DNA of 64,000 nucleotides from Pseudobacter ginsenosidimutans. Its GTDB lineage: Bacteria > Bacteroidota > Bacteroidia > Chitinophagales > Chitinophagaceae. The stretch is from assembly GCF_007970185.1 (NCBI RefSeq), contig NZ_CP042431.1:3162001-3226000 (forward strand). The letters run 5' to 3'. Of this stretch, positions 33,952 through 49,755 are shown piece after piece; position 1 is the first letter of the stretch; each line of letters opens with the position of its first letter. The notes under the pieces are model-generated. The model made no database searches. It worked only from the letters and a program-made list of their open reading frames with translations, and was not told the origin of the DNA. A program made the position numbers and the translations under genes.

Positions 33952-34812
33952 ATGATTGCCAAACTGAAATTAACAGCCATATTTTCCGCTACCGCTTTAT
34001 TGTTGAGCTGCTCAAAAGGCGGCGATAATAAAACCGAGAATCCGGACCCGGGAACAAATCCTCCCACCACCTACGTTCCAGACAACCGCGTTGTTGCACA
34101 CAGGGGCGCATTCAAAGAATTCAGTCTTCCCGAAAATTCTATCGCATCACTCGAAAAAGCCATGGAGCTTTCCTGCTATGCTTCCGAATGCGATCTCGCC
34201 ATGACCAAAGACAAACAGGTAGTGATCTGGCATGATGAGAAGATCAATGGACAATACGTGAAAGATATTAACTACGCAGACATTCAAAGTACTACTTTGT
34301 CGAATAACGAAAAGATCCCGACCCTGGCAGCATACCTCGATAAGGTAGTGGCCAATAAGAAGATCATTTTGTGGATGGATGTGAAATCACTCTCCGACGC
34401 AGCCGGCGGCAACGAATGGAGCAGCCAGACCGCAGAAGCTGCAGCAGCATTGGTTCGCAGCAAGCAGGCCCAGAAATACGTCTGCTTCATCGTTGGGCGC
34501 AAAGCGGTGCTAGACAGAAGTCTCACCGCCGCAAAAGGCGAATGGCCTTCCGGTTATATGAACGTAGATTACACTCCTGCACAATTCCAGTCAGCAGGAT
34601 ACACCTGGGCCAATTTCGATTATTCAAAATTCTACACCAACAGCACCAGCCAGAATACAAGCCTGATAGCCGACTACAAAGCCAAACAGATCAAACTCTC
34701 TGTTTACACCGTTGATGATGAAGATGCCATGAACTGGTTTGCTGCTAATAAGAATATAGACGCAATCTCAACGAATTACCCTTTCAAATTGCTGCAGAAG
34801 GTCAGAAAGTAA
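33952..34812 (+). CDS. Glycerophosphodiester phosphodiesterase-family lipoprotein (first of three)
   Basis: A 286-residue GDPD-family protein with a lipobox (LLSC, then SKGG), so probably anchored in a membrane. The active-site motifs are present: VVAHRGAF and LPENSIASL, the metal pair in ASECDLAMTKD and the second His in VIWHDE. At the place of the usual E-I-K metal motif it has LWMDVKS, with Asp for Glu. The family splits glycerophosphodiesters into glycerol-3-phosphate and an alcohol; here the true substrate may differ. It has its own promoter and a LacI-type operator and sits just upstream of the lacI-led operon that encodes two more GDPDs. Confidence 0.9.
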   Translation: MIAKLKLTAIFSATALLLSCSKGGDNKTENPDPGTNPPTTYVPDNRVVAHRGAFKEFSLPENSIASLEKAMELSCYASECDLAMTKDKQVVIWHDEKINGQYVKDINYADIQSTTLSNNEKIPTLAAYLDKVVANKKIILWMDVKSLSDAAGGNEWSSQTAEAAAALVRSKQAQKYVCFIVGRKAVLDRSLTAAKGEWPSGYMNVDYTPAQFQSAGYTWANFDYSKFYTNSTSQNTSLIADYKAKQIKLSVYTVDDEDAMNWFAANKNIDAISTNYPFKLLQKVRK

Positions 34813-34865
34813 GTTTCACTGAAAGGATAATTGATCCAACACCTTATCGCATTTTTTTACACCTG

Positions 34866-34883
34866 GATTTAAACGATTAAATC
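34866..34883. promoter_or_regulatory. LacI-family operator upstream of lacI
   Basis: GATTTAAACGATTAAATC is palindromic except at one central pair and holds the core TTTAAACGATTAAA, matching the operator at 33906-33921 in all but one base. It ends 20 bases before the regulator's ATG, suggesting autoregulation and control of the whole downstream operon. Confidence 0.7.
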
Positions 34884-34902
34884 AAGCCGGGCCGGGAAAG
34901 CC

Positions 34903-35955
34903 ATGCCTGATCATTATGTTGCCATAAACTCATTCAATGTGAGAAGAAAAGTTTCACTGAAAGACATCGCCAAACAACTCAATGTATCCACTGCATTGGT
35001 GTCTTATGTGCTGAACGACAAGTTCACAGATCGCATCCATCCGGAAACGGCCAGGAAGATCAAAGCATTGGCAGAAGAGCTGCAATATCATCCGAACCAG
35101 ATCGCCAAGAGCCTGAAGAATAATCAGACACTCACCATTGGGTTGATCATCGCTGATATCTCCAACCTTTTCTATTCTTCCATCGCCCGCGTGATAGAAG
35201 ACGCGGCCAAAGCACATAAATACAATGTGATCTTCGGCAGTGCAGATGAAAAACCGGAAAAATTCCGCGAACTGGTGCAGGTGTTCGAAAGCAGGCAGGT
35301 GGATGGCATCATCCTGGCAGCCCCCGCAGGCAGCGAGGAAATGCTCGACTACCTGAAGAGAAGGAATATTCCGTTTGTGCTGATTGACCGCGACTTCCCT
35401 GACCTGGAACAGATCAATTCCATTACCATCGATAATTACAAAGCTTCATGGAATGTTGTGGCGCATCTGAAAAAGAATGGCTTCAAAAAACCGGCCATGA
35501 TCTCACTGGCTACAGACCTGCACCATCTGCAGGAAAGAAGCAGGGGATTCCGCGAAGCCGCATCCAAACTAATGAACATCAAAACCCCGGCGCTGATTGA
35601 AGAGAGTGAAGAACACCTTTCAGAAAAAATGGAAACAGTTTTACTGAAACTAATGAATGGAAAAGAGAAATACGATGCTGTCTATTTTTCCACCAACAAA
35701 ATTGCTGTGGATGGGCTGGTGGTATTGGCCAGGCATAAAGTGGAAGTGCCAAAAAAGATCGGTGTGGTATGTTTTGATGAAGCGGAAGCCTACAGCATTT
35801 TCAATACCAGCATCACCTATGTAAAGCAGCCACTGGCCGATATCGGCGGGCAGGCAGTTGAACTCCTGCTGAAAAAGATGAAACAGGACGGGCCAGCCAA
35901 ACGCATCGTGCTGAACACTTCACTGATAGAAGGAAACTCAAGTTTACTTAAATGA
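34903..35955 (+). CDS. LacI/GalR-family transcriptional regulator
   Basis: A 350-residue DNA-binding repressor or activator. The helix-turn-helix is at ~18-45 (SLKDIAKQLNVSTALVSYVL), the hinge helix at PNQIAKSLKN, and a periplasmic-binding-protein-like sensor domain from ~75 (LTIGLIIADISNLFYSSIAR) to the end. Sensor landmarks are VDGIILAAPAG, FVLIDRDFP and IGVVCFDEAEAY. It heads the 11-gene operon with 46 bases before SusC. Two CG-centred palindromes in front of it and in front of the upstream GDPD are its likely binding sites. The effector is probably the imported sugar or polyol. Confidence 0.93.
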   Translation: MPDHYVAINSFNVRRKVSLKDIAKQLNVSTALVSYVLNDKFTDRIHPETARKIKALAEELQYHPNQIAKSLKNNQTLTIGLIIADISNLFYSSIARVIEDAAKAHKYNVIFGSADEKPEKFRELVQVFESRQVDGIILAAPAGSEEMLDYLKRRNIPFVLIDRDFPDLEQINSITIDNYKASWNVVAHLKKNGFKKPAMISLATDLHHLQERSRGFREAASKLMNIKTPALIEESEEHLSEKMETVLLKLMNGKEKYDAVYFSTNKIAVDGLVVLARHKVEVPKKIGVVCFDEAEAYSIFNTSITYVKQPLADIGGQAVELLLKKMKQDGPAKRIVLNTSLIEGNSSLLK

Positions 35956-36001
35956 TAAATGATGAAAAACATTTCTAAAAATTTTACCCCCACCATTCGT
36001 T

Positions 36002-39000
36002 ATGAAAAGTAAAAGAAATACAATCCTGCAGGCCGGCTCATGCAGCGCCCTGCTATTGATATTGCTTTGCCATAAAGCAATTGGCGCAGCACCACCTGCT
36101 GCTGCATTCGAAATGCACCTGAACGATATTACGTCCGTACTCTATGAAAGCCCTTTCCAGCAACAACAAATATCCGGTGTTGTGGCAGATGCAGACGGAA
36201 AGGGAATACCCAATGTTACCATTTACTTCAAAAGCAATCCGCAGAAACAATTCATGGCGGATGCCGATGGCGTTTTCAAAGCAACTCTGCCGCAGGAAAA
36301 TGATGTGTTGATTTTTGAATCGGTTGGCTATATGAAGAAAGAAGTAAAAGTATCTGCATCCTCCCAGAACATCAAGGTTACCATGGAGAAGAAAGACAAG
36401 TCCATGGACGAAGTGGTGGTGATCGGTTACGGAACACAGGAACGCAAGAAAGTGACTTCTTCCGTTGCCAAACTCGATGGAAAGAAACTGGAAAGTCTTC
36501 CCGTGAACTCCCTCGGTGATGGATTGAAAGGCAAGATCGCTGGTCTTCGTGTATACACTACCGATAACCAGCCGGGAGAGAATCCTACTTTCCGCATCCG
36601 CGGTGGTTCCTCCATCAATAACAGTGATGCCCCCATCATTGTGGTGGATGGAGTGGTGAGAGATCTTTCTGGGATTAATCCTAACGACATTGAATCTGTA
36701 GAAGTATTGAAAGATGCCGCCGCCGCCGCGATCTATGGAGCCCGCGCTTCCAATGGTATCGTGATGGTGACCACTAAGAAAGGATCCAATAAAAAGCCAA
36801 CGATCCTCTTTGAAGCCAGCGGAGCAGAGCAATCCCCTGCACAGGCCTTCGATCTGATGAATGCAAGAGACTATCTCTCTTATATGCGTCCTGCCATCAA
36901 GGAAGGTAAATTCCCTGCCAGGAATTTCTCCAATGGATTCTCGGCCAGCTCTTCCAATTTAGAAACTTCCATGTGGACGCCCCGCTACCTCGCCGATGGT
37001 GAAGCCGTTCCCGATGGCTGGCAGAACATGATCGATCCCATCGATCCAACCAAAACACTCATCTTCCAGGATGTGGATTATCAGAAGCGTTTCTTCCGCA
37101 ATTCTCAATGGCAGAACTATTATGTAGGTGTGAACGGTGGAACTGACGGTGTGAGATACTCGGCTTCTGCAGGCTACGTGAAAGATGGCGGTATCGGCAT
37201 CAACACTGCGTATGACCGTTTCACTATGCGCGGACTGATTGATTTCAAGATCACCGATAAACTCACTTTCACCGGTAACTATGATATGGCGCGCACCAAT
37301 ATGGATGATTATCCGGATAACAAGCGCGATGTGGTACAAAGAGGTTTGTCTACTCCCGCAACACACAGACTCTACAATACTGCAACAGGACTTCCTGAAA
37401 AAGGTTACAACGCTGCAACGCCTGCTCCTGACTGGTACGAGTATTACTACGACAGAGGCCAGGTAACAAAAAGGAATACCGTTGCCGGTAAACTGAAATA
37501 CGATTTCAGCAAGGACCTTTCCTTTACCACCATGCTGACCAATTTCAACCGCCATACACGCGCCAGCAGTTTTATCAAGGCGAATGAATACAATGGACTT
37601 CGCAATACTACTGAGTCTTTCAGCGAAACACAGAGACTCAACTGGCAGGCTTATGGTAATTACAAAAAATCAATCGGTGAACATGATTTCGATGTAACGC
37701 TGGGTACGGAATACATGCGGGATGACCTTAATGGTTTCAACGCTTCTGTTACCGGCGCATCTACCGATAATGTACCCACGCTAACAGCAGGCGCTATCGC
37801 AGGCAACCCTACCAGCACAAAGACCCGTGAAGTATTGATCAGCTATTTCGGTCGTGTTAACTATAGCTATCTGGACAGGTACCTGCTAGGTTTCACCATG
37901 CGTACCGATGGTTCTTCCAAATTCGGCAAGAACAATAAATGGGGCTACTTCCCCGGCGCTTCTGCGGGCTGGATCGTATCTGAAGAAAAGTTCTGGAAAG
38001 CTTCAGATTGGTTCAGCAACCTGAAAGTACGTGCCAGCTATGGTCTTACCGGAAACAATGCCATCGGCCTCTTCGATGTGGGCGGCGCATACAGCACCAG
38101 CGGCAAATACAATAACAATGCATCTATTACCACCTCTGTTCTCGGTAACCCTGATCTGAGATGGGAAAGTACCAGGCAGTTGGATATCGGTGTGAATGCA
38201 GGTTTCCTCAACAACAGGATCCAGTTCAGTGTGGATTATTTCAACAAGGTTACACATGATCTCCTGTTCGATGTTCCCCTTCCCAATACTGCCGGTTATG
38301 CCAACGTGCAAAAGAATATTGGAAAAGTGAAATTCTATGGCCTCGATCTTCAGATCTCGTCTACCAATATCCGAAACAAGAATTTCAGCTGGACAACAGA
38401 TTTCACCTACAGCTATATCATGAACAAAGTGCTGGAACTGCCAGACAATGGCAGGGCTGGCAATCGCATCGGTGGTATTCTTCTGCCCGATGGCTCAGGC
38501 TTTGGTGGCATCGCAGAAGGTGAAAGGCTTTACCGCATCTATGGTTATGTAACCAACGGCATCCTTGAAACACAGGCTGCAGCCAATGCTGCCATGTATG
38601 ATGCCAACTCGAATGGTTTTAGCCCAATCGATGGGAAAACTATAGCTGGTCGTAAGAACGTAGGTGATTATGAATGGCTGAACAGGCCCGGAAGCTCCCT
38701 GCGCAACGGAGAAGATCAGATCAACTCTGAAGACCAGTTCCTCCTGGGGTATACCATTCCGCATACAACTGGTGGTATCACCAATACCTTCACCTATAGG
38801 AATTTTACCCTGAATGTATTCATGGATTATGCACTCGGTCATACCGTGCAGAACTATCTCCAGGAAAGATATTTCATGGGCACTTTCAACTACAATTACA
38901 ACCTCACCAATGAAGTGAAGAAAGCCTGGACCAAACCCGGCGACGATACGAAGTATGCCAAATTCTTCGCGAACGATGCAGACGACGGTAGCAGGAACTA

Positions 39001-39265
39001 TTCAAGGGTACAGAATGTATTCAGCGAAAAAGGAGATTTCCTCTGCCTGCGTGAAGTAACACTGGCTTATAATCTTCCTGTTTCCCTGCTCGAAAAAACA
39101 AAGATCAAAAACCTGACAGTGTATGTGTCCGGCAACAACCTTTACTACTTCACAGCAGTGAACGGTGTGTCTCCCGAAAGAGGAACAGGATCAACCTACG
39201 ATACTGATTATAACCCTTACCCTGCTACGAGAAGAATGGCGGCAGGCATCAAACTCACTTTGTAA
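36002..39265 (+). CDS. SusC/RagA-family TonB-dependent transporter of the GDPD operon
   Basis: A 1087-residue SusC-like channel. After the signal region (ALLLILLCHKAIGA) there is a carboxypeptidase-regulatory-like domain at ~55-130 (QQISGVVADADGKGIPNVTI), then the TonB-box region MDEVVVIGYGTQERKKVTSS. Plug signatures are DAPIIVVDGVVRD and VEVLKDAAAAAIYGARASNG, and the barrel ends in RRMAAGIKLTL. There is no STN domain, consistent with control by the LacI regulator rather than by ECF sigma/FecR. Its SusD partner follows after 18 bases. The neighbours suggest it imports a phosphodiester-containing sugar or polyol polymer. Confidence 0.95.
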   Translation: MKSKRNTILQAGSCSALLLILLCHKAIGAAPPAAAFEMHLNDITSVLYESPFQQQQISGVVADADGKGIPNVTIYFKSNPQKQFMADADGVFKATLPQENDVLIFESVGYMKKEVKVSASSQNIKVTMEKKDKSMDEVVVIGYGTQERKKVTSSVAKLDGKKLESLPVNSLGDGLKGKIAGLRVYTTDNQPGENPTFRIRGGSSINNSDAPIIVVDGVVRDLSGINPNDIESVEVLKDAAAAAIYGARASNGIVMVTTKKGSNKKPTILFEASGAEQSPAQAFDLMNARDYLSYMRPAIKEGKFPARNFSNGFSASSSNLETSMWTPRYLADGEAVPDGWQNMIDPIDPTKTLIFQDVDYQKRFFRNSQWQNYYVGVNGGTDGVRYSASAGYVKDGGIGINTAYDRFTMRGLIDFKITDKLTFTGNYDMARTNMDDYPDNKRDVVQRGLSTPATHRLYNTATGLPEKGYNAATPAPDWYEYYYDRGQVTKRNTVAGKLKYDFSKDLSFTTMLTNFNRHTRASSFIKANEYNGLRNTTESFSETQRLNWQAYGNYKKSIGEHDFDVTLGTEYMRDDLNGFNASVTGASTDNVPTLTAGAIAGNPTSTKTREVLISYFGRVNYSYLDRYLLGFTMRTDGSSKFGKNNKWGYFPGASAGWIVSEEKFWKASDWFSNLKVRASYGLTGNNAIGLFDVGGAYSTSGKYNNNASITTSVLGNPDLRWESTRQLDIGVNAGFLNNRIQFSVDYFNKVTHDLLFDVPLPNTAGYANVQKNIGKVKFYGLDLQISSTNIRNKNFSWTTDFTYSYIMNKVLELPDNGRAGNRIGGILLPDGSGFGGIAEGERLYRIYGYVTNGILETQAAANAAMYDANSNGFSPIDGKTIAGRKNVGDYEWLNRPGSSLRNGEDQINSEDQFLLGYTIPHTTGGITNTFTYRNFTLNVFMDYALGHTVQNYLQERYFMGTFNYNYNLTNEVKKAWTKPGDDTKYAKFFANDADDGSRNYSRVQNVFSEKGDFLCLREVTLAYNLPVSLLEKTKIKNLTVYVSGNNLYYFTAVNGVSPERGTGSTYDTDYNPYPATRRMAAGIKLTL

Positions 39266-39283
39266 TCAATTAAAGAAAGCGCA

Positions 39284-40747
39284 ATGAAATCTAAATATTT
39301 TTTACCAGTGTTGGCTGCCCTGATGCTCACGGCATGTCATAAGGACCTGGACGTTATTCAAACAGATCAGATCACGGCATCGGGCATGTGGAAGTCTGAA
39401 GGCGATGCCAATTCCGCTATGTTCGGATCACATCAATTACTGAGAGCTGCATTCAGCCAGGGGCTTGTGTATTGGGGCGAATACCGTACCGGCCTCTGGG
39501 GACCAGGCAATCACAAGGGATTGTCGCAGACACCAAGAGACCAGGTATATCAAAGCTCCATGCCCAATACGCATGACTATGCAGATTGGGAGAATATTTA
39601 CAAGGTTATCAATAATGCAAATCTGCTGCTTAAATACACACCCAATATTTCTTTCGCCAATGCAGACAAGAAGAAGGAAGTACTGGCGAATGGTTACTTC
39701 GTGAGAGCGGTTTGTTATTACTGGATCGCCAGGATCTGGGGCAATGCACCGCTTGTACTCGAGGCGGTTGAGTCTCCTTCGCAGGAGCTGCTTCCACAAC
39801 GTTCATCTGTAACCGATATCCTGGCACAGGTTGAACAGGATATCGATGCTGCCCTGAGCAATATGCCTGCCTCTGTTACTGCAAAGAAGACTGCTTCACT
39901 GGCTTCCTTGAATATGTTGAAAGCAGACTTTTCCCTTTGGATGTACAAAGTGAAAAATGCAGGCAATACTTATCTCGATAAAGCTGAAACGGCTGTTGCG
40001 GCAGTATTGGGAAATTCAGCGCTCGGACTGGAAACAAATTATGCATCCATTTTCGCAACTGCATCTGAATCCGGTAAGGAAGTGATCTATTCCTGGAATT
40101 ATGCACAGGATGAATACACCGGCGGTTATGCAGCCGATTACCAGTTCAACTCTGCTACTGTTACTCCTGCGTATCATTTCAATCCTGTTGCAGTAGGTGG
40201 CAATCAGCAATGGTGTTTCTATACAGATGACTATGTAAATGTACTCACACAGAATGCTGCTGATACAAGACTTGCTACCAACTACCAGGTATTCTTCGAT
40301 AACCAGATGAACCAGACCTTCCACTGGACGAATAAATACAAGGGAACCTGGCTGAACAAGACTTTGATTCTTGATGCAGATATCATTCTTTATCGTCTTG
40401 CAGATGCCTATATGTTCAATGCTGAGATCAAGTACTACAGGAACGACGCCACCGGTGCGGTACAGGAAGTGAACAAGCTGGTAAAACGTGCATATGGCGT
40501 GGATGCTTATTATTCCACTTCTTCCACATTGCCACAGGCGCATGATATCATCGTGAAAGAGAGGATGCGTGAGTTCCCGGCAGAAGGAAAACTCTGGTGG
40601 GATTTCATCAGGCTCGGCGTTGCGTTCGATTGGAACAGCTTCCTCGCTGCCAAACAGAACCAGCAGAATATCCTGCTCTGGCCCATCAGTGATAATTCCA
40701 TCAATGATAACCCAAATCTCGGAGGACAAACACCGGGCTGGCAGTAA
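39284..40747 (+). CDS. SusD/RagB-family lipoprotein of the GDPD operon
   Basis: A 487-residue surface lipoprotein (lipobox LTAC, then HKDLD). SusD features include VLANGYFVRAVCYYWIARIW (~128-147), the C-terminal DIILYRLADAYMFNAEIKYY, and IVKERMREFPAEGKLWWDFI. It pairs with the preceding SusC and is followed after 32 bases by the BACON/FGE-like lipoprotein, which may be a second surface-exposed binding protein. Confidence 0.94.
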   Translation: MKSKYFLPVLAALMLTACHKDLDVIQTDQITASGMWKSEGDANSAMFGSHQLLRAAFSQGLVYWGEYRTGLWGPGNHKGLSQTPRDQVYQSSMPNTHDYADWENIYKVINNANLLLKYTPNISFANADKKKEVLANGYFVRAVCYYWIARIWGNAPLVLEAVESPSQELLPQRSSVTDILAQVEQDIDAALSNMPASVTAKKTASLASLNMLKADFSLWMYKVKNAGNTYLDKAETAVAAVLGNSALGLETNYASIFATASESGKEVIYSWNYAQDEYTGGYAADYQFNSATVTPAYHFNPVAVGGNQQWCFYTDDYVNVLTQNAADTRLATNYQVFFDNQMNQTFHWTNKYKGTWLNKTLILDADIILYRLADAYMFNAEIKYYRNDATGAVQEVNKLVKRAYGVDAYYSTSSTLPQAHDIIVKERMREFPAEGKLWWDFIRLGVAFDWNSFLAAKQNQQNILLWPISDNSINDNPNLGGQTPGWQ

Positions 40748-40779
40748 ACTCTTTATTTCAAACAACGATCTTTCTAATC

Positions 40780-42204
40780 ATGAAACATATTTTCAAATAT
40801 TGCCTGGCTGTTTCGTTGCTGGTAACGGCAATGCTGGTCAATCACTCCTGCAACAAAGTAGACGCATCAGATGAATACGGGGATTTTTTACAACCCGATC
40901 GTATCGGTCTGCTGAATACCAGCGTGAATCTGAATGTACAGGGTGAAGGAGCACAAAATATCATAGCTATTACCGGCCCCCATTCCGGTTGGACGGTCAC
41001 TTCTTCCGAAAGCTGGCTCACCGTTGAAAAAGGAACAACCTCAGAAAATGGAAAAGAGGAACCGGTGGTTAAGCTCTCCGCTGCTACCAATACAGGTTAT
41101 TCCAGGAAGGCCACAGTAACCATTAAACTGGAAGGAACAGAAAAAGAAGTTACCAAAACCTTTACCGTTACACAGGCTTCTGCATTGCCCGAGCCCGCAG
41201 TGAGCCTGCCGGCCACCACCTTGAATTTTACAGCAACTGCTGAAAATAAAACAGTCACCCTTACCACCAATCAAACCGAATGGACAGCAACCAGTGATGC
41301 TACCTGGTTCACTATTTCAAAAAATGGAAAAGACCTGATCATCGCCGTTACTGCCAATACCGGCAATGCACCACGCGAAGCAGTGGTGAATATCGTAGCA
41401 GGCGTAGCGCCCAATACAGCCAAGGCCACCTTGCGTGTAGTACAGGCGAAGGCCGATGATATAAACAATATCACCGTGAGCGGCATCGAGCTGGTGAGAG
41501 TGGAAGCAGGTACATTCAAAATGGGCGCCCAGAATACTGATGCTACTGCCGCCAATTATGGTGTGATCGCAACGGGTTCAGGATATGCCGCCAACCAGGG
41601 ACCAATTCATAACGTGACGCTCTCTGAATTTTATATCGGAAAGTATTTGATCACACAGGCGCAGTGGGTAGATGTGATGGGCACCAATCCTTCAAAGAAC
41701 ATTGGCAACAACAATCCGGTGGAATATGTGAACTGGACCATGGCTGCCGATTTCGTGGCTAAGCTCAGTCTGAAGACCGGCAAAACCTTCCGCCTTCCAA
41801 CAGAAGCTGAGTGGGAGTACGCAGCGAGAGGCGGTAAAAACAGCAATGGCTATGTTTTCTCCGGTGGCAATGCCAGTGCGGTGGTAGCCAATTTTGTTGC
41901 GAATACTGCTGACCGTGATAATAGTAGAACCACACCCGGCGGAACCTTCCTGCCTAATGAGCTCGGCATCTATGATATGAGCGGAAACCTCTATCAGTGG
42001 TGCAGTGATTATTTCGCAGCTTATACTGCGGATGACCAGGTGAACCCCACTGGCCCTGCTACCGGCACCAACAAGGTGATGAGGGGCGGAAGCTGGTGGC
42101 ACCTGCAAACCACCGTGTATTATCGCGGCAACAATACAGTTACCTATACCGGAACCCATGCCAATGCTGGTCTTACCGGATTACGTGTTGTATATGTACC
42201 ATAA
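40780..42204 (+). CDS. Lipoprotein with two BACON domains and an FGE/sulfatase-modifying-factor-like domain
   Basis: A 474-residue lipoprotein (NHSC lipobox). Two BACON-type beta-sandwich domains lie at ~45-130 (SGWTVTSSESWLTVEKG) and ~140-225 (TEWTATSDATWFTISKNG); such domains often bind carbohydrate or act as spacers on surface proteins. A C-terminal FGE-sulfatase-like (C-lectin fold) domain spans ~235-474, with LVRVEAGTFKMGAQ, FRLPTEAEWEYAARGG, MSGNLYQWCSDYF and VMRGGSWW. The Cys pair of true formylglycine-generating enzymes is absent in the segment after RGGSWW, so it is probably a binding rather than a sulfatase-activating protein. No sulfatase is encoded nearby. It lies in the SusC/D operon as a likely surface accessory. 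Confidence 0.85.
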   Translation: MKHIFKYCLAVSLLVTAMLVNHSCNKVDASDEYGDFLQPDRIGLLNTSVNLNVQGEGAQNIIAITGPHSGWTVTSSESWLTVEKGTTSENGKEEPVVKLSAATNTGYSRKATVTIKLEGTEKEVTKTFTVTQASALPEPAVSLPATTLNFTATAENKTVTLTTNQTEWTATSDATWFTISKNGKDLIIAVTANTGNAPREAVVNIVAGVAPNTAKATLRVVQAKADDINNITVSGIELVRVEAGTFKMGAQNTDATAANYGVIATGSGYAANQGPIHNVTLSEFYIGKYLITQAQWVDVMGTNPSKNIGNNNPVEYVNWTMAADFVAKLSLKTGKTFRLPTEAEWEYAARGGKNSNGYVFSGGNASAVVANFVANTADRDNSRTTPGGTFLPNELGIYDMSGNLYQWCSDYFAAYTADDQVNPTGPATGTNKVMRGGSWWHLQTTVYYRGNNTVTYTGTHANAGLTGLRVVYVP

Positions 42205-42207
42205 AAA

Positions 42208-43002
42208 ATGAACATGAAACACATACAATTATTGTTGATAGCCTGCATCATTGGGATGCAGGCTTTTGCGCAATTCAATTTCAACGGTATTGTGGCGCAT
42301 CGTTGTGGTATTTACAATGATCCTGCTAAACCTGAGAACTCCATAGCTGCCTTGCAGGAAGCGATGAAGCTTGACTGTTATGCTGCCGAAATGGATGTGC
42401 ATCTTACCAGGGATCATGTGCCCATCGTTTTGCATGATCATGATATAGAAGGACTGGACGTTGAGAAAACAGATTTCAAAGACCTCGGAAAAGTTCGTCT
42501 GTCAAATGGCGAGCTGATTCCAACGCTGGACCAGTTCATCAAAGCTACATTGCAGCATCCGCGGATCAAGCTCTGGCTTGATCTCAAAAGGTCCAGGGTC
42601 AGCAAAGCGCGGGATGTATTGCTGGCTGAGTTTGTGGCCGATGTGATCGATGCCAATCACGCAGCGGGCAGGATGGAAGCCATCACGCCTTCCTTCGATG
42701 CGCTGATGAAATTGAAAATGCGGGTACCTGCCATGAAACTTCATTATATTGGTACCGATAAAACCCCTGAAACCCTCCGCTACCTGGGCATCGACGGTGT
42801 GAACCTGCAATATCAACGCTACGAAAAAGAATACAACAGGAACGAAGCCCGGGAACAGGGATTGCTGGTAGGTGCTTATGTGATAGACGATCCCGCAGAA
42901 ATGAAACATCAGCTTGATCTTGGCGTGAGCTTTATCACCACCAACAAACCGGCCCTGCTCAAAGAATTGCTGAAAACCTATAAAAACTCACCGGCTAAAT
43001 GA
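42208..43002 (+). CDS. Glycerophosphodiester phosphodiesterase-family protein (second of three)
   Basis: A 264-residue GDPD-family protein with a cleavable signal peptide ending GMQAFAQ, so probably periplasmic. Motifs: IVAHRCGI (Cys where most have Gly or Ala), KPENSIAAL, AAEMDVHLTRD and VLHDHD. The third metal motif reads LWLDLKR, again Asp in place of Glu. It is shorter than the other two. It starts 3 bases after the BACON/FGE gene, and its end overlaps the next start by 4 bases (ATGA), so it is translationally coupled to the sugar-binding lipoprotein. That supports a link between cleavage and import of the product. Confidence 0.9.
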   Translation: MNMKHIQLLLIACIIGMQAFAQFNFNGIVAHRCGIYNDPAKPENSIAALQEAMKLDCYAAEMDVHLTRDHVPIVLHDHDIEGLDVEKTDFKDLGKVRLSNGELIPTLDQFIKATLQHPRIKLWLDLKRSRVSKARDVLLAEFVADVIDANHAAGRMEAITPSFDALMKLKMRVPAMKLHYIGTDKTPETLRYLGIDGVNLQYQRYEKEYNRNEAREQGLLVGAYVIDDPAEMKHQLDLGVSFITTNKPALLKELLKTYKNSPAK

Positions 43003-44021
43003 AATCAACATTGAAACTGACGATGCTCGTGGCGATTGTATCGCTGCTGTTTGGATGCATTCCAAAGAACAAACAGCAGGCTGCCGATTCAAAAACTAGC
43101 GCTAATGGATATGCGAGTGCTGCTGATCTTTCCTCATTCACAGTGGGCTATTGCACACCAACACTGGATGCTCCATTTTATGTGGCGTTGGAAAGAGCGG
43201 TAAAGGAAAAAGTGGAAAGTTATGGGATGAAATACCTCTCCACTGATGGGCAGGCTGATATCGCTAAACAGGTGATGGCTGTGGAAGACCTGCTCACCAA
43301 AGGAGTGAATGTGCTTATCATCAATCCAATCGATCCCAAAGCCCTGGTGCCCGTAGTGAAAGCTGCCAAACAACAGGGCGTGATGGTATTTGTGCTGGAC
43401 AGCTATATCGATGATGAAGCGCCCTATGAAGCTGCCGTGTTTGCCGACAATGAAAAGAACGGAGAGATCCTGGGCGAATGGGTAGTGCAGAATTTCACGC
43501 AGAAAGAAATGAATATCGCCATCATCAGCGGCAACCAGGGCAATCCTGTTGGCCGTGAAAAAAGATTGGGTTTCATCAAAGGCATTGCCGATGCGCAATT
43601 GCATGCAAGCAGCAAAGCCAGTATCAAAGTAGTGGCGCAGGGCTGGGGAGCCTGGAACAATAACGGAGGATTGAAAGCAATGGAAGATATCCTGGTGGCG
43701 CATCCTTACGTGAATCTTTTGTTGGCGGAGAACGATGCCATGGCCATGGGAGCGCTCAAAGCGATTCGCGAAATGGGCATGCAGGATAAGATCACCATCC
43801 TTGGATACGATGCACAGAAAGAAGCTTTGCAGCTGATCAAATCAGGACAATATGCCGCTACTGCTCAGAACAGTCCTTCCATCCTTGGCAGTACCATGGT
43901 GGAAGTAGTGGCGCGCAGACTGAATAAAGACGAAACGCTGAAGCGTATCAACTATACGCCTTCTGTACTGATCGACAAATCCAATGTTGACCGCTTCTAC
44001 AACGTGAACGCATTATTTTGA
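42999..44021 (+). CDS. Sugar/polyol ABC transporter substrate-binding lipoprotein (RbsB-like)
   Basis: A 340-residue type-1 periplasmic binding protein, the ligand receptor of a CUT2-type importer. Lipobox LFGC (then IPKNK) predicts attachment to the membrane. Family landmarks are FTVGYCTPTLDAPFYVALER, GVNVLIINPIDPKALVPVVK, NIAIISGNQGNPVGREKR and NLLLAENDAMAMGALKAIRE. CUT2 binding proteins take monosaccharides or sugar alcohols (ribose, galactose, inositol, xylitol), which fits the polyol dehydrogenase downstream. It is followed by the ATPase after 21 bases. Confidence 0.93.
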   Translation: MKSTLKLTMLVAIVSLLFGCIPKNKQQAADSKTSANGYASAADLSSFTVGYCTPTLDAPFYVALERAVKEKVESYGMKYLSTDGQADIAKQVMAVEDLLTKGVNVLIINPIDPKALVPVVKAAKQQGVMVFVLDSYIDDEAPYEAAVFADNEKNGEILGEWVVQNFTQKEMNIAIISGNQGNPVGREKRLGFIKGIADAQLHASSKASIKVVAQGWGAWNNNGGLKAMEDILVAHPYVNLLLAENDAMAMGALKAIREMGMQDKITILGYDAQKEALQLIKSGQYAATAQNSPSILGSTMVEVVARRLNKDETLKRINYTPSVLIDKSNVDRFYNVNALF

Positions 44022-44042
44022 TACAACCTGAATCTTGCTGCT

Positions 44043-45542
44043 ATGATTGAAATAAAAAATGTATCGAAATCCTACGGAGGCGTGCAATCGCTGAAGGATG
44101 TGAACCTTCAGGTGAAGAAGGGAGAGATCCACGCGATACTCGGTGAGAACGGCGCAGGAAAATCCACCCTGATGAAGATCATCGCCGGCGCTGTTGAAAG
44201 GAACGGAGGAACCATCCTGCTGGATGGAAAGGAAGTGCATTTCAGCAATACGCACGCTGCAAAGAAAGCAGGTGTAGGGATCATCTACCAGGAATTTTCA
44301 CTGGTGCCTGCACTCTCCGTTGCTGAAAATATTTTCCTGCACAGGCTGAACGATAAGGCTGTGATCAACTGGAACTCACTCTATCGCTCAGCCGATGAGC
44401 TTATAAAAAATTTAGGCTTTCAGTTAAACGTTAAAACAGCTGTAGCTGCGTTGAGCATCTCACAGCAACAGGTAGTGGAGATCGCAAAAGCATTGACTGA
44501 AGATGTCAGGCTGTTGATCCTCGATGAACCCTCTGCTGTACTGGGACCTGCGGAAACACATAAGCTTTTCGCTACACTTCGATCTCTCAGGGATAAAGGA
44601 GTTGCCATCATTTACATCTCGCATCACCTGGATGAATTGTTCGAGCTCTGTGACCGTATCACTGTTTTGAAAGATGGTATCACGATCAAAACTTTTGAAA
44701 CGGCTGCTACTTCCAAAGATGCTTTGGTACAGGCAATGCTGGGACGAAGCCTGAGCGCAATGTTCCCGGACAGGTCCGCACGCAAGGAAATTCCCGATGC
44801 TGCTACTTATCATATGGGAAATATTGCAGTGCTGGGACAGTCGCCCTTCTCCGTTACCGTGCAATCTGGTGAAGTTTTAGGCATCGGTGGACTGGTAGGC
44901 AGTGGCAGAACAGAATTCCTTCGTGCTGTTTTTGGTGCGGATAAGCATCCTGAAAAGAAGATCCGTCGCAACCAGGAAGAACTTCATATCCATTCTCCCA
45001 AAGATGCCGTGAAAGCAGGTATTGGTATGGTACCGGAAGACAGGAAGCATCACGGCGGTTTGCTGAACCTCAGCATCCTGGAAAATATCTCCATCACCAA
45101 TTACAAAAAGATCACGCGCAAAGCCGGTTTCATAGATCAAAAAATGGAAAAGGAAACTGCTTCGATGTTCACCCAAAAAATGAACACCAAATTGTCGTCC
45201 CTGATGGCGCCGTTGAGTTCTTTGAGTGGCGGTAACCAGCAAAAAGTGATCCTGGCCAAATGGCTGAATGTGGATGCGGGTTTGCTATTGATTGACGAAC
45301 CAACAAGAGGGGTGGATGTGGGCGCACGTTCCGAGATCTACCAGATCATCCATGAATTGTCAGAAGCGGGGATGGCCATCATTATGGTGTCTTCCGACTG
45401 GGAAGAACTGATGGGGCTATCCGATCGCATCCTGGTGATGAAAAGCGGACAGGTGCAGGGCGAATTGAGTCGTTCTGAGTTTGCAGAAGAAAGTTTATTG
45501 AGATTAGCTATTGGAGCTGTTAACGAACAAAACAAAGCTTAA
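44043..45542 (+). CDS. Sugar ABC transporter ATP-binding protein, two-domain (RbsA/MglA-like)
   Basis: A 499-residue ATPase with two nucleotide-binding domains, the hallmark of CUT2 importers. Domain 1 has Walker A GENGAGKST (34-42), the signature region LSISQQQ and Walker B LLILDEPSAVL. Domain 2 (~250-499) has the degenerate Walker A GLVGSGRTEF usual for this family, a normal signature LSGGNQQK and LLLIDEPTRGVDVGA. Cytoplasmic, attached to the permease encoded immediately after its stop codon with no intervening base. Confidence 0.95.
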   Translation: MIEIKNVSKSYGGVQSLKDVNLQVKKGEIHAILGENGAGKSTLMKIIAGAVERNGGTILLDGKEVHFSNTHAAKKAGVGIIYQEFSLVPALSVAENIFLHRLNDKAVINWNSLYRSADELIKNLGFQLNVKTAVAALSISQQQVVEIAKALTEDVRLLILDEPSAVLGPAETHKLFATLRSLRDKGVAIIYISHHLDELFELCDRITVLKDGITIKTFETAATSKDALVQAMLGRSLSAMFPDRSARKEIPDAATYHMGNIAVLGQSPFSVTVQSGEVLGIGGLVGSGRTEFLRAVFGADKHPEKKIRRNQEELHIHSPKDAVKAGIGMVPEDRKHHGGLLNLSILENISITNYKKITRKAGFIDQKMEKETASMFTQKMNTKLSSLMAPLSSLSGGNQQKVILAKWLNVDAGLLLIDEPTRGVDVGARSEIYQIIHELSEAGMAIIMVSSDWEELMGLSDRILVMKSGQVQGELSRSEFAEESLLRLAIGAVNEQNKA

Positions 45543-46478
45543 ATGAAACTGAATATCAAACGTTGGTTGATAGAAAACAATACACTGATAATTTTTGTGT
45601 TGATGGTGATCTTTTCCGCCATCATTTCCGATTCTTTTTTCACTGCTAACAATATCTCCAACCTGCTCAGGCAAACAGCTCCAGTGGGTTTGATCAGCTT
45701 CGGAATGTTGCTGGTGATCCTCACCGGTGGTATCGATCTGTCTGTAGGTTCTGTGGTAGCGGCCATCGGCGTGAGTTTCGCGTTATTGTCGCACCAGGTG
45801 TATTTCCCCTGGGCATTATTGTTCTCAGTATTGATCGGTGCAGGTGTGGGCATGATCTCCGGATACCTGGTGGCCTATCAGCGTGTGGCGCCATTCATCG
45901 CTACACTGGCAATGATGACGGTGGTTCGTGGTACTGGCTACCTGATCTCGAAAGGCTCGCCCATTACCGTTGGTGAATACTCGAAATCCATTCTGTCATT
46001 CGGAAGTGGTGATTTTCTGGGCATTCCCTGGTCGGCCATCGTGCTGCTGATCGTATTTGCACTGGTATATCTCCTGCTCAAGTACAATGCGTTCGGGAGG
46101 ATGCTGATAGCAATTGGCAGCAATGAAGAAGCGGTTCGTTTATCAGGGATCTCTGTCAGCAAATATAAATTCTGGGTATATGTGATCATTGCCGTATTCT
46201 CTGCTATTGCAGCCCTGCTGATGGTTTCCAGAACAGGTGTGGGTACGCCCAATATCGGCGTGGGCATGGAGCTGGATGTGATAGCCGTAGTGGTGATCGG
46301 TGGCGCCAGTCTTTCAGGTGGAAAGGGGAGCGTGGTGAACACCCTGCTGGGTGCTTTCATCCTGGCTATGATCGGCAATGTGATGAACCTGCTGGATGTG
46401 GCCAGCTACCTGCAGCAGGTGATCAAGGGCGTTATAATTCTCATGGCTGTGATTGCTCAGCGTTATCAAAAAAACTAG
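45543..46478 (+). CDS. Sugar ABC transporter permease (RbsC-like)
   Basis: A 311-residue inner-membrane permease with ~8-10 hydrophobic segments. The family signature is GMLLVILTGGIDLSVGSVVA (~58-77), with later VIGGASLSGGKGSV. It begins on the base after the ATPase stop. Together with the preceding two genes it makes a complete CUT2 importer. The next gene starts 4 bases after its stop. Confidence 0.95.
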   Translation: MKLNIKRWLIENNTLIIFVLMVIFSAIISDSFFTANNISNLLRQTAPVGLISFGMLLVILTGGIDLSVGSVVAAIGVSFALLSHQVYFPWALLFSVLIGAGVGMISGYLVAYQRVAPFIATLAMMTVVRGTGYLISKGSPITVGEYSKSILSFGSGDFLGIPWSAIVLLIVFALVYLLLKYNAFGRMLIAIGSNEEAVRLSGISVSKYKFWVYVIIAVFSAIAALLMVSRTGVGTPNIGVGMELDVIAVVVIGGASLSGGKGSVVNTLLGAFILAMIGNVMNLLDVASYLQQVIKGVIILMAVIAQRYQKN

Positions 46479-46482
46479 TACG

Positions 46483-47961
46483 ATGTACCTCAACAAAGAA
46501 ACTGTTACAAAACTGCCTGATACTATAAAAAAGAACAAAGCTGTTCAGCGGCCGCCTGCGGCGGTGATGCATTTTGGTGTGGGTGGATTCCATCGTTCGC
46601 ACCAGGCTTATGCATTGCAGCAATTGCTCCAGCTGGATCCTGTGAAGTATGCGGAATGGAGCATCTGTGGTATTTGCATCATGCCTTCCGACAAAGCATT
46701 TGTTGAAAGGGTGAAGCAGCAGGATCTGCTTTATTCGCTTCGCATCTGTGCATCGGGAACAAAGGAAGAAGTGATGGTGGTGGATGCCATTACAGAATTA
46801 CTGTTCGGGCCGGAACAACAAAATGAAATTATACACAGGATCGCTGCTGCCTCAACAAAACTGATCAGCTTCACTATCACTGAAGGAGGCTACAATATTG
46901 ATGAAGCCAGTGGCGCATTCAATTTGCAACAGGCAGAGATCCTGAATGATCTCCAGCCAGCCAATGCGGCTAAAACTGTTTTCGGATTTCTTGCGAGAGG
47001 ATTACAAAAACGAATGAGTAGTGATGGGGGCCCCATTACATTATTGTCCTGCGATAATATCCAGGGCAATGGCGATGTGCTGAAACTGGCCCTGTACAGT
47101 TTTGTGAATGCATATGATGCTTCATTGATCACTTACCTGGATCAGCAGGTAAGCTTCCCGAATTGCATGGTAGACAGGATCACGCCGGTTACTACAGCTG
47201 CTGACCGGGCATTGCTGGAAACAGCATATGGTTATAAAGATGATTGCCTGGTGGTTTGTGAACCCTTCTTTCAATGGGTGATTGAAAAAGAGAAAAATGT
47301 ACAGCTTCCACCACTTGAGCTGGTGGGTGTGGATCTGGTAGAAGATGTAAAAGCTTATGAAAGCATGAAGCTGCGCATCCTCAATGGAGGACATAGTTTA
47401 ACCGGTCTTACCGGAAAAGCGATGGGCTACCAGTTCATTCATGATGCCGTGCAGGATCCCACTATTGCTGTTCTTTTTGATCTGTACAATGTAAAAGAAG
47501 TACATCCTTCCCTGGAGCCTTTGCCTGGCGTGGATTACGCAGCCTATGCCGCAAAAGTGAAATCAAGATTTGCCAATGCGCTGATCAACGATAGTACAGA
47601 CAGGATCATTTCAGGCTCCACTGCCAAGATCCCCAAGTTCGTATTGCCTGTGATCCAGCACCAGGTAAGCAAAGGCATCAAGCCTGTTACCGGTGCATTG
47701 ATCGTGGCAGCCTGGTGGCATTACCTGGATACGCAGATCGGTAGTGGTACAGCCATCGATGATCCGGCAGCTCCGGAATGGAAACAATTGTTCAGGGAAA
47801 ATGCAGACGATACGTTGTCAGCATTTTTAGGAAAACAGGATCTGTTCGGCGAGCTATCGCTCAACACCCTGTTTTGTGAACAGGTGCAGTTATTCGCTGC
47901 GTTGATCAGGAAGCATGATATGTTGTACGCCTGCGAGCAGGCCATTAAAAGTTTACAGTAA
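46483..47961 (+). CDS. Mannitol dehydrogenase-family polyol:NAD oxidoreductase
   Basis: A 492-residue polyol-specific long-chain dehydrogenase. The Rossmann motif is MHFGVGGFHRSHQAY (~27-41). The catalytic segment KLRILNGGHSLTG gives K296, N301 and H304, the same spacing as the Lys/Asn/His set of mannitol 2-dehydrogenase (K295, N300, H303 as I recall). The family interconverts polyols and ketoses (mannitol/fructose, arabinitol/xylulose) or uronate-derived ketoses. The ATG at 46483 is preferred; an in-frame start at 46453 would overlap the permease. Next to a CUT2 importer and a PfkB kinase, it probably oxidises the imported polyol to a ketose. The exact substrate cannot be read from sequence. 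Confidence 0.9.
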   Translation: MYLNKETVTKLPDTIKKNKAVQRPPAAVMHFGVGGFHRSHQAYALQQLLQLDPVKYAEWSICGICIMPSDKAFVERVKQQDLLYSLRICASGTKEEVMVVDAITELLFGPEQQNEIIHRIAAASTKLISFTITEGGYNIDEASGAFNLQQAEILNDLQPANAAKTVFGFLARGLQKRMSSDGGPITLLSCDNIQGNGDVLKLALYSFVNAYDASLITYLDQQVSFPNCMVDRITPVTTAADRALLETAYGYKDDCLVVCEPFFQWVIEKEKNVQLPPLELVGVDLVEDVKAYESMKLRILNGGHSLTGLTGKAMGYQFIHDAVQDPTIAVLFDLYNVKEVHPSLEPLPGVDYAAYAAKVKSRFANALINDSTDRIISGSTAKIPKFVLPVIQHQVSKGIKPVTGALIVAAWWHYLDTQIGSGTAIDDPAAPEWKQLFRENADDTLSAFLGKQDLFGELSLNTLFCEQVQLFAALIRKHDMLYACEQAIKSLQ

Positions 47962-47963
47962 AT

Positions 47964-48872
47964 ATGAAGCATACAAGAGTAGTTTGTTTTGGAGAAATAT
48001 TGTGGGATAATCTGAAGGAAGGAAGAAGACTGGGCGGCGCGCCGCTGAATGTTTGCTATCACCTTACCAAGTCGGGCATTGAAAGCAGTATCATCAGCCA
48101 GGTAGGTAATGACCAGAATGGTGAAGCTATTTTCACTGAACTGAAAAAGCTTGGGGTTGATACCAGGTTCTGCGCCATCAGCATGGAGAAGCCAACCAGC
48201 ACAGTGGAAGTTCATATGAACGGACAGGAACTGCGTTACGAGATCGTGGAAGATGTGGCCTGGGATTATATTGAAACCACTCCTGAAATGATTGAACTGG
48301 TGAAAGCCGCTGATGCACTGGTTTTTGGGAGCCTGGTCACCAGATCGGAGATCTCGAGAAAAACCTTGTTCCGCCTGATGGAAGAAAGCAGGTTCCTGGT
48401 ATTTGATATGAATCTGCGTGCGCCATTTTATGATCGGGATGGCATTTTTCGTCTGATGAATAAAACGGATCTGCTGAAATTGAATGAGGATGAGCTGGGC
48501 ATTGTGTCCGGATGGCTGGGAGAGAACAGCACAGAGAAACAGCAACAATTGCAGACCATCAGGAAACAGTTCCCGAATATCGCAGAGATCATACTCACGC
48601 TTGGAGCAGAAGGATCTGTCTATTTTTCCACTAATGAATTCGTGGAAAAGAAAGCCAATAAAGTTCGTGTGAAGGATACCGTTGGTAGCGGCGATTCTTT
48701 CCTGGCGGCCTTCCTCGCCAATAAGCTGAAAGGTAGCTCCATTGCCGATTCCCTGGATCGCGCCAGCCTTTTATCAGGATTCATCGCCACGCAGGCGGGC
48801 GCCTGTCCCGTTTACGATGAGAATGATCTCCTGCGTTTCAAACAATCGATCGACTTAATTCAGTACCAATAA
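47964..48872 (+). CDS. PfkB-family sugar kinase (fructokinase-like)
   Basis: A 302-residue cytoplasmic kinase. The N-terminal motif is GEILWDNLKEGRRLGGAPLN, typical of fructokinases of this family, and the C-terminal ATP/anion-hole motif is DTVGSGDSFLAAFLA with the catalytic Asp in GSGD. It starts 2 bases after the polyol dehydrogenase. The pair would turn a polyol into a ketose phosphate, for instance mannitol to fructose to fructose-6-phosphate. That pathway is inferred from family and order. Confidence 0.92.
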   Translation: MKHTRVVCFGEILWDNLKEGRRLGGAPLNVCYHLTKSGIESSIISQVGNDQNGEAIFTELKKLGVDTRFCAISMEKPTSTVEVHMNGQELRYEIVEDVAWDYIETTPEMIELVKAADALVFGSLVTRSEISRKTLFRLMEESRFLVFDMNLRAPFYDRDGIFRLMNKTDLLKLNEDELGIVSGWLGENSTEKQQQLQTIRKQFPNIAEIILTLGAEGSVYFSTNEFVEKKANKVRVKDTVGSGDSFLAAFLANKLKGSSIADSLDRASLLSGFIATQAGACPVYDENDLLRFKQSIDLIQYQ

Positions 48873-48882
48873 AATCACAGAT

Positions 48883-49755
48883 ATGATCAGTAAAAGAATA
48901 TTGTTAGGCTGTCTGATTTTTCAATCTGCTTTTTCATTTGCTCAGAAACCGATGCAGAAAGTGGTGGCCAATAATTTCAAGGAATTGCAGCAATACTTTA
49001 CCTACAAGGATTCCAAACCGGTGATCATTTCAGGTCATCGTGGTGGCATGCTGCCTTATTTCCCGGAGAACAGTATCGAAGCGATGGAAAAAACGCTGAC
49101 CATCCTCCCTTCTTTTTTCGAGATCGATCCAAGGCTCACCAAAGACAGTGTGCTGGTGCTGATGCATGATGCCACGCTCGACAGGACTACCACGCTCAAA
49201 GGAAAAGTATCCGACTACACATACGAAGAACTGAAGCAGGCGCGGCTGAAAGACCGTCAGGGTAACATAACTGATTTCAAGATCCCTACACTCATGGAAG
49301 CGCTGGAATGGGGAAAAGACAAAACCATTTTCAATCTCGATAACAAAGGCATTCCCTGGTCAAAGTATGTGGACATGCTGAAGGATAAGAAGTATGCGAA
49401 TATCCTGCTGAGCGTACGTTCCATGGAAGAAGCATCTTACTACTACACACACCTGAAAGAAGTGATGCTCTGTGTGGCCATCAGGAACCAAAGCGATCTG
49501 GATGCCTGGAAGAAAACCCGCATACCTTATAACAGGCTGGTGGCTTATGTTGGTTATACGATGGATCCCAAACACCAGGCAGTATATGATTTCCTGCGCA
49601 GCAAAGGTGTAATGATCTTCATTTCTATTCATCCTACACAGGACAAACTGAAAACAGATCTTGAAAAAGTGAAAGGTTATTCAGAAGAACTGATCAAGCG
49701 CCCGGATATCATTGAAACTGATTATCCCGCTTTGTTTGTGAACGAAAAACCATAA
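48883..49755 (+). CDS. Glycerophosphodiester phosphodiesterase-family protein (third of three)
   Basis: A 290-residue GDPD-family protein with a signal peptide (CLIFQSAFSFAQ). Motifs: IISGHRGGM, FPENSIEAM, FFEIDPRLTKD and VLMHDATLDRTT, and then IFNLDNKG where the canonical metal motif has Glu. This one has the longest family-like core of the three, including the KIPTLMEALEWGKD segment. It ends the operon; a terminator follows 27 bases after the stop. The three GDPDs differ markedly from each other, so they are not recent duplicates and may act on different linkages. Confidence 0.9.
   Translation: MISKRILLGCLIFQSAFSFAQKPMQKVVANNFKELQQYFTYKDSKPVIISGHRGGMLPYFPENSIEAMEKTLTILPSFFEIDPRLTKDSVLVLMHDATLDRTTTLKGKVSDYTYEELKQARLKDRQGNITDFKIPTLMEALEWGKDKTIFNLDNKGIPWSKYVDMLKDKKYANILLSVRSMEEASYYYTHLKEVMLCVAIRNQSDLDAWKKTRIPYNRLVAYVGYTMDPKHQAVYDFLRSKGVMIFISIHPTQDKLKTDLEKVKGYSEELIKRPDIIETDYPALFVNEKP

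Follow-up and report, generated by a model that had tools for sequence, protein, structure and literature searches.

Mannitol is catabolised by operons that hold either mtlA–mtlD of the phosphotransferase system (PTS) or a mannitol 2-dehydrogenase with a fructokinase, and glycerophosphodiester phosphodiesterases (GDPDs) of the GlpQ/UgpQ type work with GlpT. The nearest described systems to the locus reported here are, going by the available part of PMC8115612, the Flavobacterium PUS loci; in F. johnsoniae a SusCD-like pair (PusCD) stands beside phosphodiesterases, is induced by phosphate depletion and has been proposed to take up organic phosphorus (PMC8115612). Here we describe a 12-gene locus of Pseudobacter ginsenosidimutans, found within a 64,000-nucleotide stretch (the window; contig NZ_CP042431.1, positions 3,162,001 to 3,226,000 of the forward strand), in which three GDPDs are combined with a SusCD pair, a CUT2 importer, a Mannitol_dh-family dehydrogenase, a PfkB-family kinase and a LacI-family regulator.

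The locus has the gene content of a PUS, a SusCD-like pair adjoining phosphodiesterases. Unlike the F. johnsoniae system, it also has a LacI regulator, a CUT2 importer and a mannitol-type pathway, which makes the alcohol half the apparent prize; no sugar-alcohol catabolism is seen for PUS in the available part of PMC8115612. With Sus-like polysaccharide utilisation loci (PULs) it shares adjacent SusC and SusD genes, surface lipoproteins, a local regulator and the joining of degradation and import in one operon, but its enzymes are GDPDs, and no glycoside hydrolase or polysaccharide lyase family was seen among its products (ten of the 12 scanned with Pfam, SusC and the ATPase with NCBIfam models only). 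The predicted route from mannitol to fructose and fructose-6-phosphate is that of mannitol catabolic operons, to which outer-membrane uptake, phosphodiesterases and a CUT2 importer are added. As with GlpQ/UgpQ and GlpT, a GDPD accompanies an organophosphate antiporter in related loci; the differences are an apparent dedicated pathway for the alcohol and a window genome that lacks a close antiporter.

We consider it reasonably probable that the locus, under LacI control, serves to take up and catabolise a mannitol phosphodiester, in the simplest case glycerophosphomannitol, the deacylated head group of phosphatidylmannitol. A preliminary description, made from the window's letters, had proposed that a polyol phosphodiester is bound, split outside the cytoplasm and its polyol imported and catabolised. 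The conserved gene set supports this core idea, with the activities predicted, and comparison among relatives favours mannitol as the probable polyol.

A GDPD clade associated with mannitol-type genes

The link to mannitol is most evident for the last GDPD of the row, GDPD3. With the best 80 of 144 relatives kept from a GTDB genome scan using a GDPD3 alignment, a tree of 85 GDPD3-like sequences (short search, no bootstrap) fell into groups of 28 and 57, with an SH-aLRT support of 100. Mannitol-type genes lie within 5 kb of 16 of the 28 sequences in the GDPD3 clade, the window's included. A mannitol dehydrogenase, MtlD or MtlA gene accompanies 15 of the 27 clade relatives and none of the 57 sister-clade sequences, 19 of which have a flank shorter than 5 kb (P = 1.2e-9 in Fisher's test, which ignores relatedness); in all 15 it lies at most 5 kb from GDPD3 and on the same strand. 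Three of the 15 had been found via the dehydrogenase itself. For scan-derived loci alone the counts are 12/24 against 0/56 (Fisher 4.5e-8), or 11/24 without locus L071 (p 2.4e-7). Placed on the tree, the mannitol label changes 5 times, compared with 12–16 times in 200 shuffles. The GDPD rows of L060 and L061 are identical and not independent; L060 is a Proteiniphilum contig and L061 is titled Spirochaetia, probably a binning error. The sister clade has a recurrent row of its own, in which a GDPD is accompanied by two FGGY-like kinases and, in most cases, a phosphoglycerate-mutase-like gene (names by eye), seen in L100, L101, L104, L107, L116, L121, L123, L124, L126 and L128 from Chitinophaga, Pedobacter, Olivibacter and Flavisolibacter. 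A paralogue in the window genome, at C1:1798230, groups in the tree with the Flavisolibacter GDPD of this row.

The inner-membrane and catabolic genes that accompany the GDPD3 clade are of several kinds. The CUT2 importer, the mannitol-dehydrogenase-like enzyme and PfkB occur together in the window, L051–L053, L056, G018 and G237, and G022 has the importer and dehydrogenase with no PfkB match. L068 carries a sodium/solute-symporter-like protein (168 bits, cut-off 184) with the dehydrogenase and PfkB types, and L071 a glucose/galactose-MFS-like protein (132 bits, cut-off 202) with the dehydrogenase. A further six loci are mannitol PTS loci with MtlA (L054, L059, L060, L061, L064 and L073), five of them also with MtlD. 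All three of the six MtlA proteins tested exceed the TIGR00851 cut-off of 468.4 (475.6, 483.2 and 491), as do all three of the five MtlD proteins tested for the NF002646 cut-off of 368 (423.6, 425.5 and 418.9). At E 1e-60, MtlA was found in none of the 395 sampled phylum genomes and in 3 of 14 control genomes; with no positives in the phylum sample, the reverse test by MtlA therefore serves as a base rate only.

The outer-membrane genes vary as well. Relatives of the window-type SusD are present in L051, L052, L053 and L074, and a more distant one in L073, downstream of a mannitol PTS. A second SusCD type, with a MetallophosN/C phosphoesterase, stands beside the CUT2 importer in G018 and L056, and the SusD end of this type stands with the phosphoesterase and the PTS in L054. 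The outer-membrane components thus seem to remain linked to the mannitol function irrespective of the inner-membrane route. A SASA-family esterase gene is found in G018, G237 and L056 (by Pfam for two, by similarity for G018). A third SusD type was noted in G277, L068 and L071, and a metallo-beta-lactamase-like protein recurs in G277, L068, L070 and L071, with DUF6772 in L068 and a window-type dehydrogenase nearby in three of the four (L045 6652–13591, L068 602–8951, L071 3847–20081 and L070 5911–8459).

More tentatively, and with slightly less than even confidence, we propose that mannitol phosphodiesters, either glycerophosphomannitol or a mannitol-phosphate polymer, do serve as a nutrient in the environment, for which several exchangeable outer-membrane modules and two to three or more inner-membrane and catabolic modules are arranged around one dedicated GDPD clade in Bacteroidota. 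A definite class of substrate is thereby predicted for one GDPD clade and for SusCD types that had none assigned in our searches. If true, such diesters would be abundant enough somewhere to repay a dedicated outer-membrane system, and would constitute an overlooked natural food molecule; Sus-like nutrition would widen from glycans to polyol phosphodiesters, and carbon and phosphorus acquisition would be linked.

Other genomes hold this gene set too, which argues that the arrangement is more than chance. Its conservation in relatives, suggested as a check in the preliminary description, was borne out: the Chitinophagaceae member Gynurincola endophyticus (G036, locus L051) is collinear, with all 12 genes in identical order, and Sinomicrobium (L052) and Sphingobacterium humi (L053) keep the SusCD pair, importer, dehydrogenase, PfkB and GDPD3 in order with small changes, L052 being without GDPD2 and L053 without the BACON/FGE gene and, within the stretch examined, without GDPD1 or lacI. 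In the family, the dehydrogenase has matches in 176 of 294 sampled genomes, only eight of which (the window genome included) reach at least 37% identity; the remaining listed matches are at most 34% identical, mostly 22–31%. The dehydrogenase adjoins GDPD3 in five of these eight. The other three have a relative of 37–40% identity, which in G277 and G067 is without a GDPD in the examined stretches and in G165 lies on a 4.2-kb contig. As the five other same-genus genomes listed have weak dehydrogenase matches only (E 2e-17 to 9e-15), the locus looks accessory. GDPD3-like matches above 500 bits occur in 4 of 396 order genomes and 2 of 395 phylum genomes, two samples that overlap, and all of them are rows of the query alignment. 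One match of 334.7 bits in the phylum sample (G921), outside the tree set, has no mannitol genes in 20 kb.

The proposed substrate and competing explanations

In the proposed pathway, the SusCD pair and the BACON/FGE protein would bind the diester and carry it through the outer membrane. The lipoprotein GDPD1, probably at the surface, and the putatively exported GDPD2 and GDPD3 would split phosphodiester bonds, giving free mannitol and a phosphorylated partner, probably glycerol-3-phosphate. The CUT2 importer would then move mannitol into the cytoplasm, where the dehydrogenase would convert it to fructose and the PfkB enzyme would convert fructose to fructose-6-phosphate. According to the available part of PMC12221286, cardiolipin synthase of E. 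coli produces phosphatidylmannitol and diphosphatidylmannitol when mannitol is supplied, so a mannitol-rich setting could be a source of the parent lipid. That 7 of the 27 clade loci have a GlpT-like organophosphate antiporter near GDPD3, and 5 a GpsA-like gene, suggests glycerol-3-phosphate as the other half of the diester; in L064 the order is GpsA-like gene, MtlA, PtsI, GDPD3 and antiporter. For five antiporters scanned, the PgtP and GlpT models were best, below cut-off, and three GpsA-like genes scanned fell far below theirs.

Several observations weigh against this reading. Three GDPDs look too many for one small diester, and a polymer fits better. The antiporters are no commoner in the GDPD3 clade than in the sister clade (20/57), a frequency that would fit glycerol-3-phosphate release shared by both clades, with the mannitol link as the GDPD3 clade's own feature. 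No close organophosphate antiporter was found in the window genome (best E 1.7e-5), which leaves the fate of glycerol phosphate there unexplained; it may therefore be handled otherwise. The L073 SusCD is distant (SusD 36%, SusC 43–50% in two frames) and, standing behind sigma-/anti-sigma-like genes (by eye), may be a separate unit. L071 is doubtful as a mannitol locus, because its dehydrogenase adjoins a PL8 lyase and scores nearly as well with the fructuronate reductase model as with its best model; the dehydrogenases of L068, L071, L045 and L048 score only 20–42 bits lower with the fructuronate reductase model than with that for arabinitol dehydrogenase. The dehydrogenase and kinase of the window fall under every NCBIfam equivalog cut-off, and the conserved active-site residues of the former are common within its family and do not separate mannitol from arabinitol. 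Finally, in a literature search with most subscription journals outside its coverage, glycerophosphomannitol was named in no paper found; the same search gave none on a GDPD with polysaccharide utilisation, or with mannitol, in Bacteroidetes.

The number of GDPDs is best accommodated by the foremost rival, which we nevertheless consider unlikely, namely that the substrate is a polymer: a wall teichoic acid with mannitol phosphate or mixed glycerol/mannitol phosphate, which GDPD1 would cut at the surface, the oligomers being imported and finished by GDPD2 and GDPD3 in the periplasm. The layout is PUL-like, with one lipoprotein enzyme and two exported ones, and a source is known, since the wall teichoic acids of Brevibacterium iodinum comprise poly(mannitol phosphate) and minor poly(glycerol phosphate) (PMC6801904, available part). 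Esterases and phosphoesterases in some relatives, and alpha-L-rhamnosidases near some, are as expected for decorated polymers. However, cleavage of a mannitol-phosphate chain would be expected to release mannitol phosphate, whereas the transporters of relatives (the MtlA PTS) are for free mannitol, and no phosphomonoesterase or glycosidase family was seen at the window locus in the Pfam/NCBIfam scans. Three clade loci have such rhamnosidases nearby (GH106 twice, GH78-type once), and in a fourth mtlD is preceded by an FGGY kinase gene and an isomerase-like gene (L054 12286–15132, L040 6067–8901, L061 2110–4926 and L059 1752–3128); these are a possible sign of a rhamnosylated native substrate.

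It is less likely again that one regulon serves two nutrients. Ordinary lipid head groups would then give the GDPDs phosphate or glycerol-phosphate, and free mannitol of the same origin, e.g. fungal biomass, would feed the importer, dehydrogenase and kinase. In its favour, phosphodiester scavenging through SusCD loci is known from Flavobacterium (PMC8115612, available part), and GDPD3 occurs without a mannitol gene in 12 of the 27 clade relatives, which also counts against a mannitol diester. These 12 comprise six Weeksellaceae, in which only a TonB-receptor-like gene stands beside GDPD3 (by eye), four of Opitutaceae type with GpsA-like genes, and L055 and L074, both cut by contig ends, the former retaining a PtsI fragment, GDPD3 and antiporter. 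Against two separate nutrients, none of the 57 sister GDPDs stands beside mannitol genes, though they would serve the same purpose, the exchangeable mannitol routes remain tied to one GDPD clade, and the LacI-family regulator comes with two exact operator-like sites found only here in the genome.

Dehydrogenase, kinase and importer

The preferred reading of a mannitol diester draws further on the catabolic enzymes. The nearest entry in the Protein Data Bank (PDB) to the dehydrogenase is the Pseudomonas fluorescens mannitol dehydrogenase (1lj8, 306 bits), and the nearest entries are mannitol and sorbitol dehydrogenases. The P. fluorescens enzyme binds mannitol through K295, N300, H303, R373 and K381 (PMC6623548, available part), and a K-N-H motif is given in the available part of PMC5025769. 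All five residues are invariant in an alignment of five relatives, where they bear the same numbers, unshifted relative to 1lj8 (numbering of the 491-residue query without its first Met). For the kinase, the nearest PDB entry is the fructokinase 2qhp (174 bits vs 91 for the next), although it reaches only 85.8 bits with the fructokinase model PRK09434 (NF006957) against an equivalog cut-off of 450. The binding protein is nearest to 4ry9 both by sequence (255 bits vs 143 for the next) and by fold, with a predicted fold of pLDDT 38 from the single sequence and 83.8 from a five-row alignment. We take 4ry9 to be a talitol complex.

The same mechanism could thus act on another polyol in the window version, such as D-arabinitol, sorbitol or talitol, which we regard as improbable. 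The best NCBIfam model for the dehydrogenase is in fact that of D-arabinitol 4-dehydrogenase (NF043014), at 325.6 bits, below its cut-off of 600. The PTS relatives in the GDPD3 clade, by contrast, are mannitol systems by NCBIfam cut-offs, and the kinase is nearest to fructokinase, whereas the usual kinases for xylulose formed from arabinitol belong to the FGGY family.

A uronate-pathway dehydrogenase, together with GDPDs inactive on polyol diesters, was among the cases named in the preliminary description as ones that would overturn it; scores and tree disfavour a fructuronate or tagaturonate reductase and leave it only a very small residual probability, for although such enzymes belong to the same Pfam families and the fructuronate model comes close in some relatives, the window enzyme stays below both cut-offs (fructuronate NF011611, 241.6 bits vs 603; tagaturonate NF002969, 143.2 vs 359), the arabinitol model is the best, below cut-off, for it and the nine window-type relatives scanned, none of which reaches a uronate cut-off, the nearest solved structures are those given above, a tree separates 13 window-type enzymes from 22 weaker family matches with a support of 100 (all three of the 22 that were scanned pass the tagaturonate-reductase cut-off), and Pfam/NCBIfam scans of the locus showed no family of uronate isomerases, dehydratases or lyases.

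Gene row, GDPDs and operator-like sites

Table 1. Genes and sequence elements of the P. ginsenosidimutans locus (window positions)
Feature	Position	Strand	Evidence
Perfect operator-like palindrome TGTTTAATCGATTAAACA	33905–33922	no strand	upstream of GDPD1; LacI-type form TTTAATCGATTAAA at 33907
GDPD1, predicted lipoprotein, glycerophosphodiester phosphodiesterase-like	33952–34812	+	PF03009 71.6 bits; lipobox LLSC, last residue 20
Second operator-like site TTTAAACGATTAAA	34868–34881	no strand	between GDPD1 and lacI
LacI-family regulator	34903–35955	+	PF00356 45.2 bits, PF13377 80.4 bits
SusC/RagA TonB-linked outer-membrane transporter	36002–39265	+	TIGR04056 764 bits vs cut-off 368
SusD-like surface lipoprotein	39284–40747	+	PF14322 54.7, PF07980 52.7 bits; lipobox
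BACON + FGE-sulfatase-like domain protein	40780–42204	+	PF03781 130.1, PF13004 57.5 bits
GDPD2, predicted exported phosphodiesterase	42208–43002	+	PF03009 77.6 bits; N-terminus signal-peptide-like by eye
CUT2 periplasmic binding protein	42999–44021	+	PF13407 182.1 bits
CUT2 double ATPase subunit	44043–45542	+	NCBIfam AraG/XylG/RbsA models 435–531 bits, under cut-offs
CUT2 permease	45543–46478	+	PF02653 139.4 bits
Mannitol_dh-family polyol-specific long-chain dehydrogenase, probable mannitol 2-dehydrogenase	46483–47961	+	PF01232/PF08125
PfkB-family kinase, probable fructokinase	47964–48872	+	PF00294 156.9 bits
GDPD3, the system's conserved phosphodiesterase	48883–49755	+	PF03009 78.0 bits; clade-specific tie to mannitol-type genes
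Intrinsic terminator-like element, 10-pair stem then T run	49779–49813 (stem scan 49779–49806)	+	terminator scan

The open reading frames and the Pfam/NCBIfam profile matches confirm the row given in the preliminary description, a GDPD followed by lacI through to a last GDPD on one strand with tight spacing, and named domains are present in each of the 12 genes (Table 1). From lacI on, the gaps in gene order are 46, 18, 32, 3, −4, 21, 0, 4, 2 and 10 bases; 90 bases separate GDPD1 and lacI. The importer has the composition of a CUT2 system, with a binding protein, a double ATPase that matches AraG/XylG/RbsA near full length and one permease family. The dehydrogenase starts at the ATG at 46483, with an in-frame TTG upstream at 46453. 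By its SusE-like position, the BACON/FGE protein is a probable accessory binding protein; it has no match to a simple lipobox pattern. The closing terminator of the same description was also found, as a stem that is the longest listed in the terminator scan and lies directly 3' of the last gene, although the scan gave 21 sites in the window against 15.5 (standard deviation 3.9) in shuffles and is weak evidence by itself. A downstream Gfo/Idh/MocA-type oxidoreductase gene (49843–51072) was considered as a further member and rejected, being located past this stem; it has no homologue in the examined stretches of the Gynurincola, Sinomicrobium and Sphingobacterium loci.

The single-contig 7.8-Mb genome encodes seven PF03009 proteins, three of them within the 16 kb of the locus, and all three pass the PF03009 cut-off of 23.6 bits. 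GDPDs are characterised by the motifs His-Arg, Glu-x-Asp and His-Asp. The corresponding residues of GDPD1 (H50 R51, E79 D81 and H94 D95) are invariant in an alignment of GDPD1, GDPD2, GDPD3 and the L038 GDPD2, and those of GDPD3 (H52 R53 E80 D82 H95 D96) in five aligned sequences. The GDPD1 lipobox is also present in the Gynurincola and Sinomicrobium orthologues. GDPD2 and GDPD3 match a simple lipobox pattern at residues 13 and 10, respectively, within a hydrophobic stretch, with no match in the L051 and L053 orthologues of GDPD2 or the L051 orthologue of GDPD3; by eye, both look like exported proteins. The nearest solved structure to GDPD3 is 3mz2, a GDPD without a substrate named in the entry. 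Those nearest to GDPD2 and GDPD1 (7ww4 and 7wwc) are named beta-1,3(4)-glucanase, a function we rejected for the two proteins because the match covers residues 4–236 and the GH16 part residues 240–459. The GDPD–GH16 fusion in these two-domain entries suggests GDPDs that act on phosphate-decorated glucans. A comparison with agrocinopine enzymes, drawn in the preliminary description, gained no support beyond the shared GDPD core (AvrBs2, E 1.1e-5 for GDPD2 and 7.2e-4 for GDPD3), and an agrocinopine/AvrBs2-type identity (NF041304) was rejected at 23.6 and 17.6 bits against an equivalog cut-off of 1000.

Operator-like sites flank GDPD1. Their core TTTAANCGNTTAAA occurs twice in the window (0.03 expected), and these two places, either side of GDPD1, are its only exact copies in the genome, which ties GDPD1 to the unit. 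GDPD1, set apart from an 11-gene operon in the preliminary description, thus appears to lie within the regulated unit and probably belongs under LacI control. Gynurincola has TTTAANCGNTTAAA sites at both equivalent positions (L049 7258 and 8324). In other relatives the core lies upstream of lacI (G237, L039 6471; G022, L043 7478), upstream of a SusC gene that follows GDPD3 (G237, L039 16016) or heads the gene row (G018, L042 3883), and, in G067, upstream of the dehydrogenase relative and at its 3' end (L048 11847 and 13615). Upstream of lacI in L056 and L052, a search allowing up to two mismatches did not find it. From position and conservation, LacI would bind both sites; the regulon may be this locus alone, and the sites suggest sugar control rather than control by phosphate depletion.

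Elsewhere in the window, positions 51185–62900 hold sigma-factor-like and FecR-like genes (by eye), a SusC-like gene and three fasciclin-domain proteins, and positions 21129–28299 hold a SusCD-like pair followed by a GH97 glycoside hydrolase.

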